Of a DNA stretch of 33,602 nucleotides, positions 7,189-33,565 are shown in pieces. The translations under genes and the position numbers were made by a program. Below the pieces are notes generated by a model. It was not told the origin of the DNA. It saw only the letters and a list, made by a program, of their open reading frames with translations, and did not search any database. Origin of the DNA: Bacteroidota bacterium (GTDB taxonomy: Bacteria > Bacteroidota > Bacteroidia > NS11-12g > UBA9320); the NCBI GenBank assembly GCA_018700895.1, contig JABIUV010000019.1:1-33602 (forward strand). Direction: 5' to 3'. The stretch's first letter is position 1; every line of letters begins with the position of its first letter.

Positions 7189-8394
7189 TTATCGTGGATC
7201 AGAAATACGACCTATAAACAGAATATTGTCAGCCTTATTATCTGCCAACACAAAAATGTATGGTGAATTGAAATCTACCTGAGGTGGCAGACTGGTAAGG
7301 ACTGCACCCGCGGCTGTAACGGCAGCACCCTCCGTACCTCTCTCATCTACAGTCATAAATGTTTTATGCACTACACGAGATATTGCCACATTATTCTGCT
7401 CTGCCATTTTGGATAAATCTGCCCCGGAGGTAAACATATCCTCTATTCCAAGTACTCTCAAGGCATCTTTGATAGTTTCATTTTTATACTCAACAGTGAA
7501 CTTAGGCATGGTAAACATTAGTCGTTTTTGTGCTAAGCCTTCTTTCACCGCTTTAAACGTATCGTAATCAAAGTTGGCTATCAATTCATTCACATCTCCG
7601 CTCTGTGGCTTTATGAGAAACATCGAAATTTCTTCTCCCTTGTACGGTAGCTCTACAGCCACAAGTTCATTATCAGTATAGGTGCTGAATGTCCTATCTG
7701 CAAAAAGTGTTGGTGTTTGCACAACTTCACTGCTTTGTAAGGTAAAATCCCGATCTCGGGTACTTTGTTCTACGAATCCATCTTTCCAGTCTGCCTTCAG
7801 ATAGAGGGCATTTACTAAAAACATCACCTCATCACTCGCTATATTATCTAGTATGGTGGGGATTCGAGTCTTGGTTTTATCACTTACCCAACCGTTAATG
7901 GCATTGAGCGACTGTTCCTCGTTGCTAAAATCTTGACTTAAGATAGTAGCATTAAAATTGCTTACTAAGTCTTGTTCATATTGTGGCAACAAGTTTAATC
8001 TCTTTTCATCATAAAATGCCGCATTGCTAAGCTCTATCACGGCGTGTCCATTGCGTGAGTTCAACCAAGTATTAAACTCTTTAGCCGATTGTAAAATATC
8101 GTCTTTAGATTCGCCATTGGCCAATGCATTGGCGAGCTCATCAGCCGTATTGCCGTCGGCACCTTGCAATATCATTTGTATAACCGAGGAAACCGAGGAA
8201 GGAGAAATTATAACATTCTTATCCTCAGGCTCTTGACTTATAATGGTCATAAACAGATTGGTAGAAAAATCAGAAGTCAAACTCATTTCAATGTTCGGTG
8301 TACTTGGGTTAGGTGTGGATGGAGTGCTTTCCTCGCAGCCAGCACCTAGTAAACTTATGATGGTCAAAACCACTAGAACAGATAAATTTTTCAT
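7189..8394 (-). CDS. Serpin-family protease inhibitor, predicted lipoprotein
   Basis: A 401-residue protein starting MKNLSVLVVLTIISLLGAGC, where Cys20 lies in a lipobox, so it should be membrane-anchored after export. A Thr/Pro/Ser spacer follows and then a full serpin fold. The reactive-loop hinge ERGTEGAAVTAAGAV (from residue 351) has the small residues expected of an inhibitory serpin, and the C-terminal serpin signature is seen in SPYIFVLADNKADNILFIGR. Counting 17 residues from the hinge glutamate puts P1 at Thr367 with Leu366 at P2 and Ser368 at P1', suggesting an elastase- or chymotrypsin-like target. The ATG at 8394 is chosen because a -7 motif lies 6 bases upstream. It ends 3 bases from the convergent oxidase. 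Confidence 0.93.
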   Translation of the reverse strand: MKNLSVLVVLTIISLLGAGCEESTPSTPNPSTPNIEMSLTSDFSTNLFMTIISQEPEDKNVIISPSSVSSVIQMILQGADGNTADELANALANGESKDDILQSAKEFNTWLNSRNGHAVIELSNAAFYDEKRLNLLPQYEQDLVSNFNATILSQDFSNEEQSLNAINGWVSDKTKTRIPTILDNIASDEVMFLVNALYLKADWKDGFVEQSTRDRDFTLQSSEVVQTPTLFADRTFSTYTDNELVAVELPYKGEEISMFLIKPQSGDVNELIANFDYDTFKAVKEGLAQKRLMFTMPKFTVEYKNETIKDALRVLGIEDMFTSGADLSKMAEQNNVAISRVVHKTFMTVDERGTEGAAVTAAGAVLTSLPPQVDFNSPYIFVLADNKADNILFIGRISDPR

Positions 8395-8400
8395 GATGGT

Positions 8401-8408
8401 CAAAATTA
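8401..8408 (-). promoter_or_regulatory. Putative -7 element of the serpin gene, 6 bases before the ATG
   Basis: TAATTTTG on the minus strand is an exact TAnnTTTG match. With transcription expected to begin a few bases after the G, the mRNA would start at or next to the ATG. I see no good -33 half-site. Confidence 0.45.
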
Positions 8409-22601: not shown

Positions 22602-25184
22602 ATGAGTAAGTTCATGGTATCCCCAACATTCCTATTTACCTATGTTGCTCTTCTAATCGGTGCTTATACCCAAGCACAAACAACCTATAACATCACCACG
22701 CCAAAACAACTAGAAGACCAGACGTACGCTCCTGGCGATGTAATAATATTGGCGGATGGCACATATAACACCGATGAACTCATTGATTTTGTGGGAGATG
22801 GCACAGCGGCCAACCCTATTACTTTCAGACCTGAAACTCCAGGTGGTGTGAAATTCACCGGAGGACTACGGATGAATATAGGTGGTGACTATGTGGTAGT
22901 AGACGGTTTTCACTGGCAAGGCGGATATGGGGCAAGTAATTTTATTCAATTTCGCAATGGTACCGACTACGCCAATCACAGTAGCATACAAAACTGTGTG
23001 ATAGACGGACTAGCCATAGAACCAGATGATGTAGCAGACGATTTAGCCGAAGGATCTAAAACAAAGCACCGTTGGATAGTGCTGTATGGCACCTATAACA
23101 ACGTAATCAACTGTACGTTTATGAATAAAAATAGTGCAGGGGCACTCATCCTTACAGAGTATCAATACAATGCTGAGGCAGATAGATGTGCCAACGTAGG
23201 CCATACGATAAGCAACAATTATTTTTATAAGTATGCCAAAGTAGACCCAACCTTAAGTAACTCCGGCGATAGTGAGACCATACGTATAGGTACAAGCGAA
23301 TACCAAAACGTGAACAGCAACGTAGTAGTAAGCAACAACTATTTTGTGGAGGCTGATGGTGAAAATGAAATCATAACCAATAAGAGCAAAGGGAATACGT
23401 ATGAAAATAACACCTTCAGACGATGCCGAGGCTCCTTGGTACTTCGTCACGGCTCAGACGCTACGGTAAGTAGCAATTATTTTATAGGAGAAAATATAGA
23501 TGGAACTGGCGGAATACGCATCACTGATAGTGACCACACCATTACCAACAACTATATACAAGATTGCATCACGGTATTGAGCCAAGCCAAATGGAACAAC
23601 GGAATAACCTTCCTAGGTGGTGGCGATAATGCAGCTGTACCGTGTACTTCTACTAGTGTTTCCAATGGTTACCAAAAATCACAAAATATCAATGTATCTA
23701 ATAACACCTTTGTAAATACCAATGCACCCTTGTTTTACAACACCGACAAAGGTTCTACCGACCCAACGGGAACAGTAGCTAATAATCTCATCTATTTTGC
23801 AACGGGAAATGCCAATACCTCGGATGTGATAAGCGGCGATGATGCCTCAGCATACGCCAATTTGGGCACAGCTCTTACTTACAGTGGCAATGTGTTCACT
23901 GGCACATCACTGGGTGCTACCAATGAAGGTTTTTCACTTGAATCTGGAATTACGGCAACCGCAGAAGGTGAGATTTACACTTTTTCGGGTAGCGGAGCAG
24001 CAGGTAAAGGTGCTAATATGGAAAGCTACACTCCTATAGCCGACAGTATGGTAGGTTACGGCATCGGAGCTTGTTTTGTAAACTACCTTGGCACAGGAAT
24101 AACCGATGGAAATTGTACCATAAAAATTGGCGACAGACTTACGGTGAGCACTTTACCCATCCTAACCTCCGATGCGAGTGATAATGAAGTAACGGTGAAT
24201 GCCAATGTGAGTTGGACGGCAGTGAGTAATGACAAGTGGATAACCATAGACCAAGCATCGGGAACTGGTGATGCTACACTTTCACTATCTGTAACGGCAA
24301 ATACAACTACCACTAGCCGCACAGGTACGGTCACCTTCACCCAAGATGCAGGTGGCGATGATATCGTACGGGTATTATCTGTTTCGCAAGATGGTTTAGA
24401 GCTAACCGACCTTTATGGTTTGATAAATAATGGAACAGGACTACCAGAAGATAAGGTGAAGGTATACTCATTCTCCAAAGAAGAGGTAAATGGGTTGAGT
24501 AAGTTTAACTATGCTAAAAACACACTCGATAAAAGTGCAAGCAGTGTATGGGCTGCCGATGATGGTTCTGTTTTGGATGGTGACTATAAAGGTGATGGCG
24601 AATACATTATTTTCGATTTAAGCACCTTACACACTATTAAACTCATACAATTTAGCACTACGAACAAATCAGACCCATTTGGCTACCAAATTTGGGTCTC
24701 GACCACGGGGACGGAGGATGCAGACTTTACTCAAGTATTACCCACATCAGAAGACCTTTTACTCACAGAAGCAAACACTACCGATTTTAATCAATACTTA
24801 ATAGACGCTACCGAAGCGAGGTATGTAAAACTAATCGGCTTCGGCAGGTTTAATAGCGATGGAGATACACGTACTAGTGCGTGGAGTGCCGTGTCGGAGA
24901 TTGAATTTTATGGTCCGAAGAGTAGTAGTAGTACATATGATCAAGAATTTACCGGCCAACTAGCCATTTACCCTAATCCAGCAAACGATAGATTACATAT
25001 TAAAAACACTACCACGGTAAAATCTGTAGCCATTTACAGCTTAACTGGAAAAAAATTACTACAACAAGATGTAAATGGAGCAACCACCGAAATTGATGTA
25101 TCGGACTTGCCCGATGGAGCATACACCGTGCTCATAAAAGGAGAGCAGTTTACCGAAACACGCTTTGTGGTTATTTCAAGCTAG
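22602..25184 (+). CDS. PL6 polysaccharide lyase (alginate lyase / chondroitinase B type), secreted by T9SS
   Basis: An 860-residue multidomain enzyme. A signal peptide ends near residue 26. Residues about 28-480 form the right-handed beta-helix of family PL6 (PGDVIILADGTYNTDELIDF, many N-N-x-F/Y turns). The catalytic pair is visible as Lys261 in ITNKSKGNTYENNTF and Arg282 in GSLVLRHG, the PL6 signature. Then come a BACON domain (about 512-597), an F5/8 type C-like domain (about 625-770, suited to binding carbohydrate), and a T9SS sorting domain (about 785-860, IYPNPANDRLHI). It should cleave a uronate polymer, most likely alginate, outside the cell. Its TAG stop overlaps the stop of the convergent outer membrane gene. 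Confidence 0.92.
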   Translation: MSKFMVSPTFLFTYVALLIGAYTQAQTTYNITTPKQLEDQTYAPGDVIILADGTYNTDELIDFVGDGTAANPITFRPETPGGVKFTGGLRMNIGGDYVVVDGFHWQGGYGASNFIQFRNGTDYANHSSIQNCVIDGLAIEPDDVADDLAEGSKTKHRWIVLYGTYNNVINCTFMNKNSAGALILTEYQYNAEADRCANVGHTISNNYFYKYAKVDPTLSNSGDSETIRIGTSEYQNVNSNVVVSNNYFVEADGENEIITNKSKGNTYENNTFRRCRGSLVLRHGSDATVSSNYFIGENIDGTGGIRITDSDHTITNNYIQDCITVLSQAKWNNGITFLGGGDNAAVPCTSTSVSNGYQKSQNINVSNNTFVNTNAPLFYNTDKGSTDPTGTVANNLIYFATGNANTSDVISGDDASAYANLGTALTYSGNVFTGTSLGATNEGFSLESGITATAEGEIYTFSGSGAAGKGANMESYTPIADSMVGYGIGACFVNYLGTGITDGNCTIKIGDRLTVSTLPILTSDASDNEVTVNANVSWTAVSNDKWITIDQASGTGDATLSLSVTANTTTTSRTGTVTFTQDAGGDDIVRVLSVSQDGLELTDLYGLINNGTGLPEDKVKVYSFSKEEVNGLSKFNYAKNTLDKSASSVWAADDGSVLDGDYKGDGEYIIFDLSTLHTIKLIQFSTTNKSDPFGYQIWVSTTGTEDADFTQVLPTSEDLLLTEANTTDFNQYLIDATEARYVKLIGFGRFNSDGDTRTSAWSAVSEIEFYGPKSSSSTYDQEFTGQLAIYPNPANDRLHIKNTTTVKSVAIYSLTGKKLLQQDVNGATTEIDVSDLPDGAYTVLIKGEQFTETRFVVISS

Positions 25185-31209: not shown

Positions 31210-31764
31210 TTAAAATGCTACCTGTTTACCCGCAATAGTATCATAGTACATCGTCACCTCTTTAAATTTCAAGTGACTATTATCACCTAAATAGACCCTA
31301 CACTTGTGTATAGGCTTCATGTAGAGATGTAACGTCATTGCAACCTCAGTAGTAGTGTTTTTTAAACTATGAAAGAACGAGGACTCGTCTGCATTAGTAA
31401 TTTCAAAAGTGCCAAGCGTTCTAGAACCAGTAGGTGTCATTACATCATCTTCATAAGTATACATCTCCTCTAAGAAAGTACCTTGGATTACTTTCACCCA
31501 ACACTCCTTATCATCGTGACAGTGAATGGCGGTTTGCTGGCCTGGTTGCCAGCATAATAACACAAGCTCATACGCATCGTTGTGCGATATGCAATTGCGA
31601 GTATAACGATCTGCTTTCCAAGTAGCATATTGAATAAACTGTTCAGCCGACAATGCGACAGACCCCAATTGATTAGTAACAGATTCAAAATCCCCGTCAT
31701 TTAAACGGGCCACCAACTCTTTAAGGTTTGAAACTTTCTGATGTGTTTTTTCTTGAAAAGACAT
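31210..31764 (-). CDS. Cysteine dioxygenase
   Basis: A 184-residue cupin enzyme that oxidises L-cysteine to cysteine sulfinate using non-haem iron. The iron ligands are His81 and His83 in TAIHCHDDKECWVKVIQG and His132 in SSFFHSLKN. Arg56 in YTRNCISH matches the carboxylate-binding arginine that distinguishes cysteine dioxygenase from mercaptopropionate dioxygenase. Cys88 and Tyr148 (in TLHLYMKP) occupy the positions of the Cys-Tyr thioether cofactor of mammalian enzymes. The frame opens far upstream at 32088, but the start at 31764 gives the correct family length and avoids overlap with the divergent gene. It is divergent from a group II decarboxylase with 100 bases between them. Confidence 0.93.
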   Translation of the reverse strand: MSFQEKTHQKVSNLKELVARLNDGDFESVTNQLGSVALSAEQFIQYATWKADRYTRNCISHNDAYELVLLCWQPGQQTAIHCHDDKECWVKVIQGTFLEEMYTYEDDVMTPTGSRTLGTFEITNADESSFFHSLKNTTTEVAMTLHLYMKPIHKCRVYLGDNSHLKFKEVTMYYDTIAGKQVAF

Positions 31765-31776
31765 ATAAAAAGAAGA

Positions 31777-31784
31777 CAAATTTA
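31777..31784 (-). promoter_or_regulatory. Putative -7 element of the cysteine dioxygenase gene
   Basis: TAAATTTG on the minus strand, an exact match, 12 bases before the ATG. Confidence 0.45.
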
Positions 31785-31809
31785 GCTTATTACCGCAAGA
31801 TTCTGAGTA

Positions 31810-31840
31810 TTTGGTCTTAGTTTTTAACAATCTACGCTTT
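31810..31840 (+). promoter_or_regulatory. Putative promoter of the PLP decarboxylase gene
   Basis: TTTG (31810-31813), 19 bases, then TACGCTTT (31833-31840), six of eight matches to the -7 consensus, 24 bases before the ATG at 31865. Both this and the dioxygenase promoter fit in the 100-base divergent gap. Confidence 0.4.
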
Positions 31841-31864
31841 TTCTTGCTAACCCCATTTAATACT

Positions 31865-33241
31865 ATGACGTTTGACGAAGAAAGAATGAAAGCAGAATTA
31901 GATTTTTTTAACGAACTCGTAAATAAACTTTTAGAACAAGAAGAAAACGAACCAGTAGTATCCCCTATTCCTGCAGGCGACGTTATAAAAGAGCTACATT
32001 TAGGCTTTGATGATGCCCCATTAGAGCTTAGCGAATGGAAAAAAGTGGTAGAGACCGCCGTAATGAATACACCACGTACCGCATCCAAGCTGTTTTTTAA
32101 TCAACTTTTTGGCGGAAGGCAACCTAAAGCAGTAATTGGCGACCTCTTGGCAGTACTGCTCAACAACAGTATGTACACTTATAAAGTTGCTGGACCACAA
32201 GCAGGTATAGAAATAGCAATACTTCAGGAAGTGTGCAAACTCGTAGGATACGAAGATGGAGATGGCACAATGCCTCCAGGTGGCAGTATGAGTAACTATA
32301 TGGGACTTGTAATGGCTCGTGATGCTAAGGATAATACCGTACGTTATTCGGGTGTGACTAAGCGAATGACGCTCTACACATCCAATACATCACATTATAG
32401 TACACCAAAAAATGCCGCGTTTGCTGGAGTAGGTCGTGATAACATACGCTATATCAATAATGATAACGAAGGCAGAATGGACCCAGCTCACCTAGAAAAA
32501 TGCATTCAGAAAGATCTCGCTCACGGGCATACTCCTTTTTATGTAAATGCCACGGCAGGCACTACTGTTTTGGGGGCATTTGACGATATAAATGCCTTAG
32601 CAGATGTATGCCAAAAGTATAGACTTTGGCTACACGTAGATGGTGCCTATTGCGGTGCGGTTATATTCAGCAAAAAGTACAAGCACCTTGTAGCAGGAAT
32701 AGAGCGAAGTGATAGCTTTAGTTTCAATGCCCACAAAATGCTCGGCACTCCACTCAGTAGCTCCATCATCGTAACCAAGCATAAGGAGCAACTCGTAAAA
32801 TCATTTAGTAACGAAGCCGACTACCTATATCAAACGGGAGACGAAGATTTTGACTTAGGGAGAACAAGCATACAATGCGGCCGTCGAAATGACGCCCTGA
32901 AACTATGGACTCTATGGAAAGCCGTGGGCACTAGTGGACTCGAAAAAATAGTAGACCAACAATTTAAACTAGCAGAAGTAGCTCGTGATTATATACGGAG
33001 TAATTCGGACTTCACTTTATACAGCCATCCTAATTCTATATCGGTATGTTTTAATTATAAAAAATTAGACCCAAAGGTGCTCTGCACACAGCTATACGAG
33101 GATGGCTCACTGATGGTAGGTTATGGTAAGTTTAAGGGACAAGAGTTTGTAAGATTGGTGACTATAAATGCTACTAACACCAAAGTTGATATATTGCAAT
33201 TTTTCAAAGCACTGGAAGAAGGAGCTAAACATATTGGTTAA
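31865..33241 (+). CDS. Group II PLP-dependent decarboxylase, cysteine sulfinate decarboxylase-like
   Basis: A 458-residue enzyme of the glutamate/cysteine sulfinate/aromatic amino acid decarboxylase group. Marks are ASKLFFNQLFGG, MPPGGSMSNYMGLVMARD, the cofactor strand LWLHVDGAYCGA, the PLP lysine Lys291 in SFSFNAHKMLGTPLSSS, and the C-terminal EFVRLVTINATNT. In the substrate region the sequence LNNSMYTY is closer to mammalian cysteine sulfinate decarboxylase (LNTSQYTY) than to glutamate decarboxylase (ANTNMFTY), both recalled from memory. Together with the divergent cysteine dioxygenase this points to hypotaurine formation. The frame opens at 31811, but the ATG at 31865 avoids the promoter region and gives the family start. 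Glutamate or aspartate as substrate remains possible. Confidence 0.88.
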   Translation: MTFDEERMKAELDFFNELVNKLLEQEENEPVVSPIPAGDVIKELHLGFDDAPLELSEWKKVVETAVMNTPRTASKLFFNQLFGGRQPKAVIGDLLAVLLNNSMYTYKVAGPQAGIEIAILQEVCKLVGYEDGDGTMPPGGSMSNYMGLVMARDAKDNTVRYSGVTKRMTLYTSNTSHYSTPKNAAFAGVGRDNIRYINNDNEGRMDPAHLEKCIQKDLAHGHTPFYVNATAGTTVLGAFDDINALADVCQKYRLWLHVDGAYCGAVIFSKKYKHLVAGIERSDSFSFNAHKMLGTPLSSSIIVTKHKEQLVKSFSNEADYLYQTGDEDFDLGRTSIQCGRRNDALKLWTLWKAVGTSGLEKIVDQQFKLAEVARDYIRSNSDFTLYSHPNSISVCFNYKKLDPKVLCTQLYEDGSLMVGYGKFKGQEFVRLVTINATNTKVDILQFFKALEEGAKHIG

Positions 33242-33262: not shown

Positions 33263-33565
33263 TTGAAACGATTAGTTTCCATATTACTCATACTTAGTCT
33301 CGGTTTTACTGGAGGCAGTAGTATTTTGCATCAGCTAGAGCAAGATGAAAATCACACGCATGAGGCTGGAACACACCTCTGCGAGGAAGATGCTCATCAC
33401 CACTGCTCACTTTGCGACACTCTTATGACCTTTGGTCTGGTGACTGCAAAACAGGAAAATAACGAGTATATCGCCTGGAACTCAACGTACCGCGTAGCAC
33501 AAACATCTTTGTACTACTCTAACTACCCATCAAACACTCAGGGTAGAGCTCCACCTATGAAATAA
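33263..33565 (+). CDS. Exported His/Cys-rich protein, probable DUF2946-like metal-linked protein
   Basis: A 100-residue protein beginning MKRLVSILLILSLGFTGGSS, a signal peptide. The mature part has a metal-binding look: His31, His33, His38, Cys40, His45-47, Cys48 and Cys51 (the stretch HLCEEDAHHHCSLCD), and it ends RAPPMK, close to the R-G-P-P end I remember from small Bacteroidota proteins encoded before copper- or metal-related TonB receptors. The start codon is TTG at 33263, 21 bases after the decarboxylase stop; a -7-like motif directly upstream supports that start. The next gene, which could confirm the context, is outside the window. Confidence 0.8.
   Translation: MKRLVSILLILSLGFTGGSSILHQLEQDENHTHEAGTHLCEEDAHHHCSLCDTLMTFGLVTAKQENNEYIAWNSTYRVAQTSLYYSNYPSNTQGRAPPMK

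Follow-up and report, generated by a model that had tools for sequence, protein, structure and literature searches.

A divergent cysteine dioxygenase and CSAD-type decarboxylase gene pair as a likely hypotaurine-forming route in a Bacteroidota bacterium

Two divergently transcribed genes at the right end of a 33,602-nucleotide stretch of Bacteroidota DNA (here called the window) very likely constitute a bacterial route that forms hypotaurine from cysteine. The first gene product is a predicted cysteine dioxygenase (CDO), which would use a three-histidine iron site and O2 to convert L-cysteine to cysteine sulfinate. The second is a PLP enzyme of the cysteine sulfinate decarboxylase (CSAD) type, which would convert cysteine sulfinate to hypotaurine. 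Hypotaurine would most likely build up and serve as both compatible solute and antioxidant; its conversion to taurine, if it occurs at all, would proceed by chemical (nonenzymatic) oxidation or through some other enzyme. We infer the substrates, flux, and use of the pathway from features read in the sequence, namely, the identity of the two enzymes, their active-site residues, the selectivity motif of the decarboxylase, and the joint conservation and joint loss of the genes.

Contig C47, which makes up the window, belongs to a genome of 2.4 Mb with a completeness estimate of 100%, whose close relatives are uncultured Bacteroidia metagenome bins; the source bacterium is probably marine. The genome was examined by single-family searches, which found a single CDO gene and a single PF00282 gene. 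Two given single-copy genes would be adjacent by chance in about 1 of 1,000 genomes of such size, and the CDO/decarboxylase pairing was seen again in dozens of genomes. The 100 bp described earlier as a shared divergent region does separate the two start codons (Table 1). A mechanical call that began the decarboxylase at TTG 31811 was replaced by the start given in the table.

Table 1. Features of the CDO/decarboxylase locus in window coordinates
Feature	Coordinates	Strand	Basis
Predicted cysteine dioxygenase (CDO), 184 aa	31210..31764	-	Pfam, PDB match, residue alignment
Divergent intergenic region, 100 bp	31765..31864	.	Promoter-like element
Predicted CSAD-type group II PLP decarboxylase, 458 aa	31865..33241	+	Pfam, PDB match, motif, tree
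21-bp gap, site of the PutP-like symporter gene in L028 to L031	33242..33262	+	Comparison with near relatives

The CDO_I model of Pfam matched the predicted CDO with 76.2 bits (cutoff, 23). Its top PDB match was mammalian CDO1 (E value, 4e-18), and solved bacterial CDOs matched at 4e-7 or weaker. Alignment to rat CDO1 confirmed the four residues named in the preliminary description: H81, H83, and H132 of the iron site align with rat H86, H88, and H140, and R56, the carboxylate anchor, aligns with rat R60. In addition, C88 and Y148 are the counterparts of the Cys93-Tyr157 pair that forms a thioether cross-link in animals. Thus, the three-histidine site, Arg60, Tyr157, and Cys93 of mammalian CDO1 (PDB 2b5h) are all kept, whereas overall identity is low and Thr144 stands in place of Ser153 in the S-H-Y motif. 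The active site is complete and of the Arg type in all 68 CDOs from such clusters, and the three histidines, the arginine, and the equivalents of Cys93 and Tyr157 are invariant in a 69-row alignment of these 68 proteins and rat CDO1. The Arg type marks CDOs, in contrast to the Gln type of 3-mercaptopropionate dioxygenases (PMC8050391). On these residues, the window protein is predicted to be an Arg-type CDO with every catalytic residue present. Bacterial CDOs are said to work with an unmodified tyrosine (PMC8050391); the cluster CDOs possess the residues required for a predicted Cys-Tyr cross-link. The Cys93 equivalent also occurs in a Vibrio CDO (L114), which ruled out its being unique to the cluster CDOs, and a Priestia CDO has glycine at this position.

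Replacement of the window CDO gene by a foreign copy was considered, since the CDO is 41% and the decarboxylase 82% identical to the respective proteins of the related locus L003. This explanation was set aside because CDO evolves fast across the genus (L003 and L005 share 51% identity in CDO and 80% in the decarboxylase), so that rapid divergence is enough to account for the low identity.

The Pyridoxal_deC model of Pfam matched the decarboxylase with 262 bits, and the top PDB sequence match was human CSAD (E value, 2e-81), followed by mouse CSAD, GADL1, and glutamate decarboxylases (GADs). The catalytic set consists of the Schiff base lysine K291, H177, D259, the loop tyrosine Y320, and R430. 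Published mutagenesis (PMC4754659, PMC8153620) assigns a role in substrate selectivity and kcat to a motif defined as X1-19aa-X2-aa-X3 (PMC4754659). CSAD has F/S/Y at these three positions, and fish CSDs of low activity have F/N/F (PMC4754659). In our alignment, the motif is S/N/F in animal GAD and Y/S/Y in animal GADL1. The window enzyme carries F82/S102/Y104, which is exactly the CSAD type: the segment LNNSMYTY, noted earlier as more like CSAD than GAD, is present and completes the motif with Phe82. Relative to human CSAD (PDB 2jis), core identity is about 41%, and F/S/Y and the catalytic lysine, histidine, aspartate, and loop tyrosine are common to both enzymes; compared with animal CSAD, the catalytic loop of the window enzyme is 3 residues shorter. 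These features point to cysteine sulfinate as the probable substrate. The enzyme does not conform to the animal GAD type, as it lacks S/N/F and is not placed with GAD65/67.

Assignment to other group II families was not favored by the scores. The model of the PLP aspartate decarboxylase PanP (NCBIfam TIGR03799) gave 143 bits against a cutoff of 606, and the L-2,4-diaminobutyrate decarboxylase model (NCBIfam NF052646) gave 173 bits against a cutoff of 900. A Pantoea homologue that adjoins a diaminobutyrate transaminase gene has a motif unlike that of the window decarboxylase. Plasmid-borne matches were rejected as relatives: even the best share no more than about 30% identity with the decarboxylase, and the ones retrieved are other group II decarboxylases without a CSAD motif. 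No relative was found on viral contigs. An AlphaFold model of the decarboxylase (mean pLDDT, 82; active-site loops poor in the monomer) matched CSAD, GADL1, and GAD alike, with Z scores of about 40, so the fold search cannot split CSAD from GAD.

In a maximum-likelihood tree, which included neither insect aspartate decarboxylases nor the characterized bacterial CSAD of Synechococcus PCC 7335, the Bacteroidota decarboxylases formed one clade with support of 100/100. The enzyme did not group with glutamate or aspartate decarboxylases, an outcome that does not refute the earlier CSAD-like assignment; its PanP and diaminobutyrate decarboxylase scores were likewise far below the cutoffs. This clade was sister to animal CSAD, GADL1, and GAD together (support, 89/80, with a long-branch warning) and was not nested within CSAD. 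All clade members examined have F/S/Y or Y/S/Y and keep the Schiff base lysine, stacking histidine, aspartate, loop tyrosine, and C-terminal arginine. The early-branching L027 also has F/S/Y, and the motif may perhaps be just ancestral.

Conservation of the pair, which the preliminary description had left to a survey of relatives, was found at several levels. Both genes are present in 13 of 18 genomes of the same genus and neither is present in the other 5, showing that the pair is kept or lost jointly in this genus. Across 57 relatives, 21 have both genes, 34 have neither, and each gene occurs alone once (Fisher P value, 2e-13, with shared ancestry ignored). CDO is adjacent to the decarboxylase in 58 of 94 distinct loci and absent within at least 4 kb in 24, with the remaining 12 unscored; this state changed only 4 times on the tree, versus at least 15 times in shuffles. 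The layout varies among marine Bacteroidota: it is divergent in the window's genus and in Psychroflexus, whereas Polaribacter, Tenacibaculum, Lacinutrix, and others have both genes in one operon with CDO first. CDO-CSAD operons had reportedly already been noted by Agnello and coworkers in 2013. The route is rare in the phylum as a whole: of 295 genomes, 6 have the decarboxylase and 3 of those have a CDO of the cluster type.

Winogradskyella and its relatives mostly carry the F/S/Y decarboxylase without CDO. Several Winogradskyella-type genomes contain an F/S/Y decarboxylase and PanD but no CDO anywhere, a combination recorded for loci of Winogradskyella and Ulvibacter (L052, L054, L062, L105, and L041) and for the genomes G283 and G175. 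Among cultured carriers, no CDO was found in Winogradskyella luteola, and CDO adjoins the decarboxylase in Psychroflexus planctonicus. Because of these genomes, the F/S/Y motif is no proof of a CDO-supplied substrate.

In relatives, a third gene often accompanies the pair. It encodes an SSF family symporter that is similar to the sodium/proline symporter PutP (SSS family) and yet falls below the PutP equivalog cutoff (TIGR02121, 331 bits against 515.5). Of 49 named loci with CDO, 26 have the symporter gene close to the pair, in most cases directly adjoining it, and two arrangements occur. Colocation with CDO and CSAD was recorded at L028:6634-8133, at L067:3604-5136, and at 27 other loci. Among the relatives, all 15 genomes that carry the symporter have both enzymes. 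Exclusive linkage was refuted at the phylum level, where the symporter is also found in genomes without CDO, and its neighbors in those genomes gave no pointer to its substrate. It probably moves some substrate or product of the hypotaurine route. The PutP-like symporter was not found anywhere in the window genome, where its position in L028 to L031, between the decarboxylase gene and the next small open reading frame (ORF), corresponds to a gap of 21 bp; this genome either lost the symporter or never had one.

The expected product is hypotaurine. No FMO-like protein was found in the window genome in the search for an FMO-type hypotaurine oxidase, and no Xsc protein scored above the cutoff. 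Hypotaurine is therefore the likely direct end product, and taurine catabolism of the Xsc type is not expected. Of the cysteine-to-hypotaurine/taurine route first proposed for this locus, the two genes would cover the part up to hypotaurine, and no FMO-type step onward to taurine was found. The route is of the animal type, as had been suggested, but bacteria were already known to have it. A taurine pathway consisting of CDO and CSAD was published in 2013 for marine bacteria, namely, Synechococcus sp. PCC 7335 and its relatives (Agnello et al., ACS Chem Biol 8:2264, as cited in PMC12585060, PMC8153620, and PMC4754659), and a 2025 paper names marine cyanobacteria and marine flavobacteria as carriers of the route (PMC12585060; also PMC8153620). 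For this reason, we regard the pair as a further example of a known route. The two enzyme activities are expected to be the same as in Synechococcus PCC 7335 and the F/S/Y motif is shared, whereas the phylum differs, the genes in the window's genus are divergent rather than operonic, and relatives have a symporter partner.

Dissolved taurine is described as a notable carbon and energy source of marine prokaryotes (PMC7891661). Its origin is usually sought in animals and phytoplankton. If marine Bacteroidota have a conserved pair for its biosynthesis, bacteria would be a source besides a sink, and hypotaurine may be what they produce; the linked symporter and the branches that lack CDO provide testable leads to the purpose of the route. 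Osmolyte or antioxidant use is the most likely function in view of the chemistry and a probably marine habitat, although the sequence does not discriminate among the osmolyte, sulfur store, and host signal roles named in the preliminary description. More speculatively, and with odds that we judge to be against it, CDO, the F/S/Y decarboxylase, and the PutP-like Na+ symporter could form a three-gene module for compatible solutes in marine Bacteroidota, which would both make and import hypotaurine or taurine, with CDO carrying the animal-type Cys-Tyr cross-link and CDO-free branches being fed by cysteate or environmental sulfinates.

A different purpose for the same chemistry would be the disposal of surplus cysteine, with hypotaurine exported as waste. 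CDO controls cysteine levels in animals. Moreover, CDO has been termed a bacterial cysteine degradation route (Dominy 2006, as cited in PMC8050391). This purpose is compatible with the main chemistry; however, the Na+-driven symporter linked to the pair in relatives suits uptake better than export, and we consider disposal an unlikely main role.

It is more doubtful still that the decarboxylase acts chiefly on another acidic amino acid, forming beta-alanine from aspartate or gamma-aminobutyrate (GABA) from glutamate, and that CDO serves cysteine breakdown through the sulfinate to pyruvate and sulfite. Many Flavobacteriaceae do have F/S/Y decarboxylases without CDO, and the PDB labels animal GADL1 (Y/S/Y) as an acidic amino acid decarboxylase, indicating that the family can be promiscuous. 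Against this, the motif is unlike that of GAD, CDO and the decarboxylase are gained or lost jointly in the genus, and PanD is present in the window genome and in 18 of the 19 genomes tested (CDO bearing and CDO free mixed), which makes beta-alanine supply an unlikely role. Least probable is that the enzyme acts chiefly on cysteate, which could be diverted from the supply that Bacteroidota make for sulfonolipids, to yield taurine directly, with CDO a secondary supplier: this would account for the CDO-free lineages, and CSAD-type enzymes accept cysteic acid as well, but CDO coupling is tight in the window's own genus and no cysteate-forming gene was seen among the genes neighboring the pair.

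The gene pair also shares an upstream feature with several relatives. The intergenic region contains a Bacteroidota-type -7 element, TAnnTTTG (TAAATTTG), with its last base 12 nt upstream of the start codon of CDO, and the same element is found 10 to 12 nt ahead of the CDO start in the relatives L003 to L008 and L011. This spacing suggests that the CDO transcript may be leaderless or almost so.

Several other features of the window were recorded. A conserved His/Cys-rich ORF of about 100 aa (window positions 33263 to 33565), for which Pfam gave no match, directly follows the decarboxylase gene or, in L028 to L031, the symporter gene; it closes with a GRAPP motif common to the window and L028 to L031. 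A serpin (Pfam, 305 bits) is encoded on the minus strand at 7189 to 8403 and has an N-terminal signal and cysteine, giving it a lipoprotein-like look. On the plus strand, positions 22602 to 25184 encode a secreted chondroitinase B-like polysaccharide lyase with a BACON domain and a type IX sorting tail.
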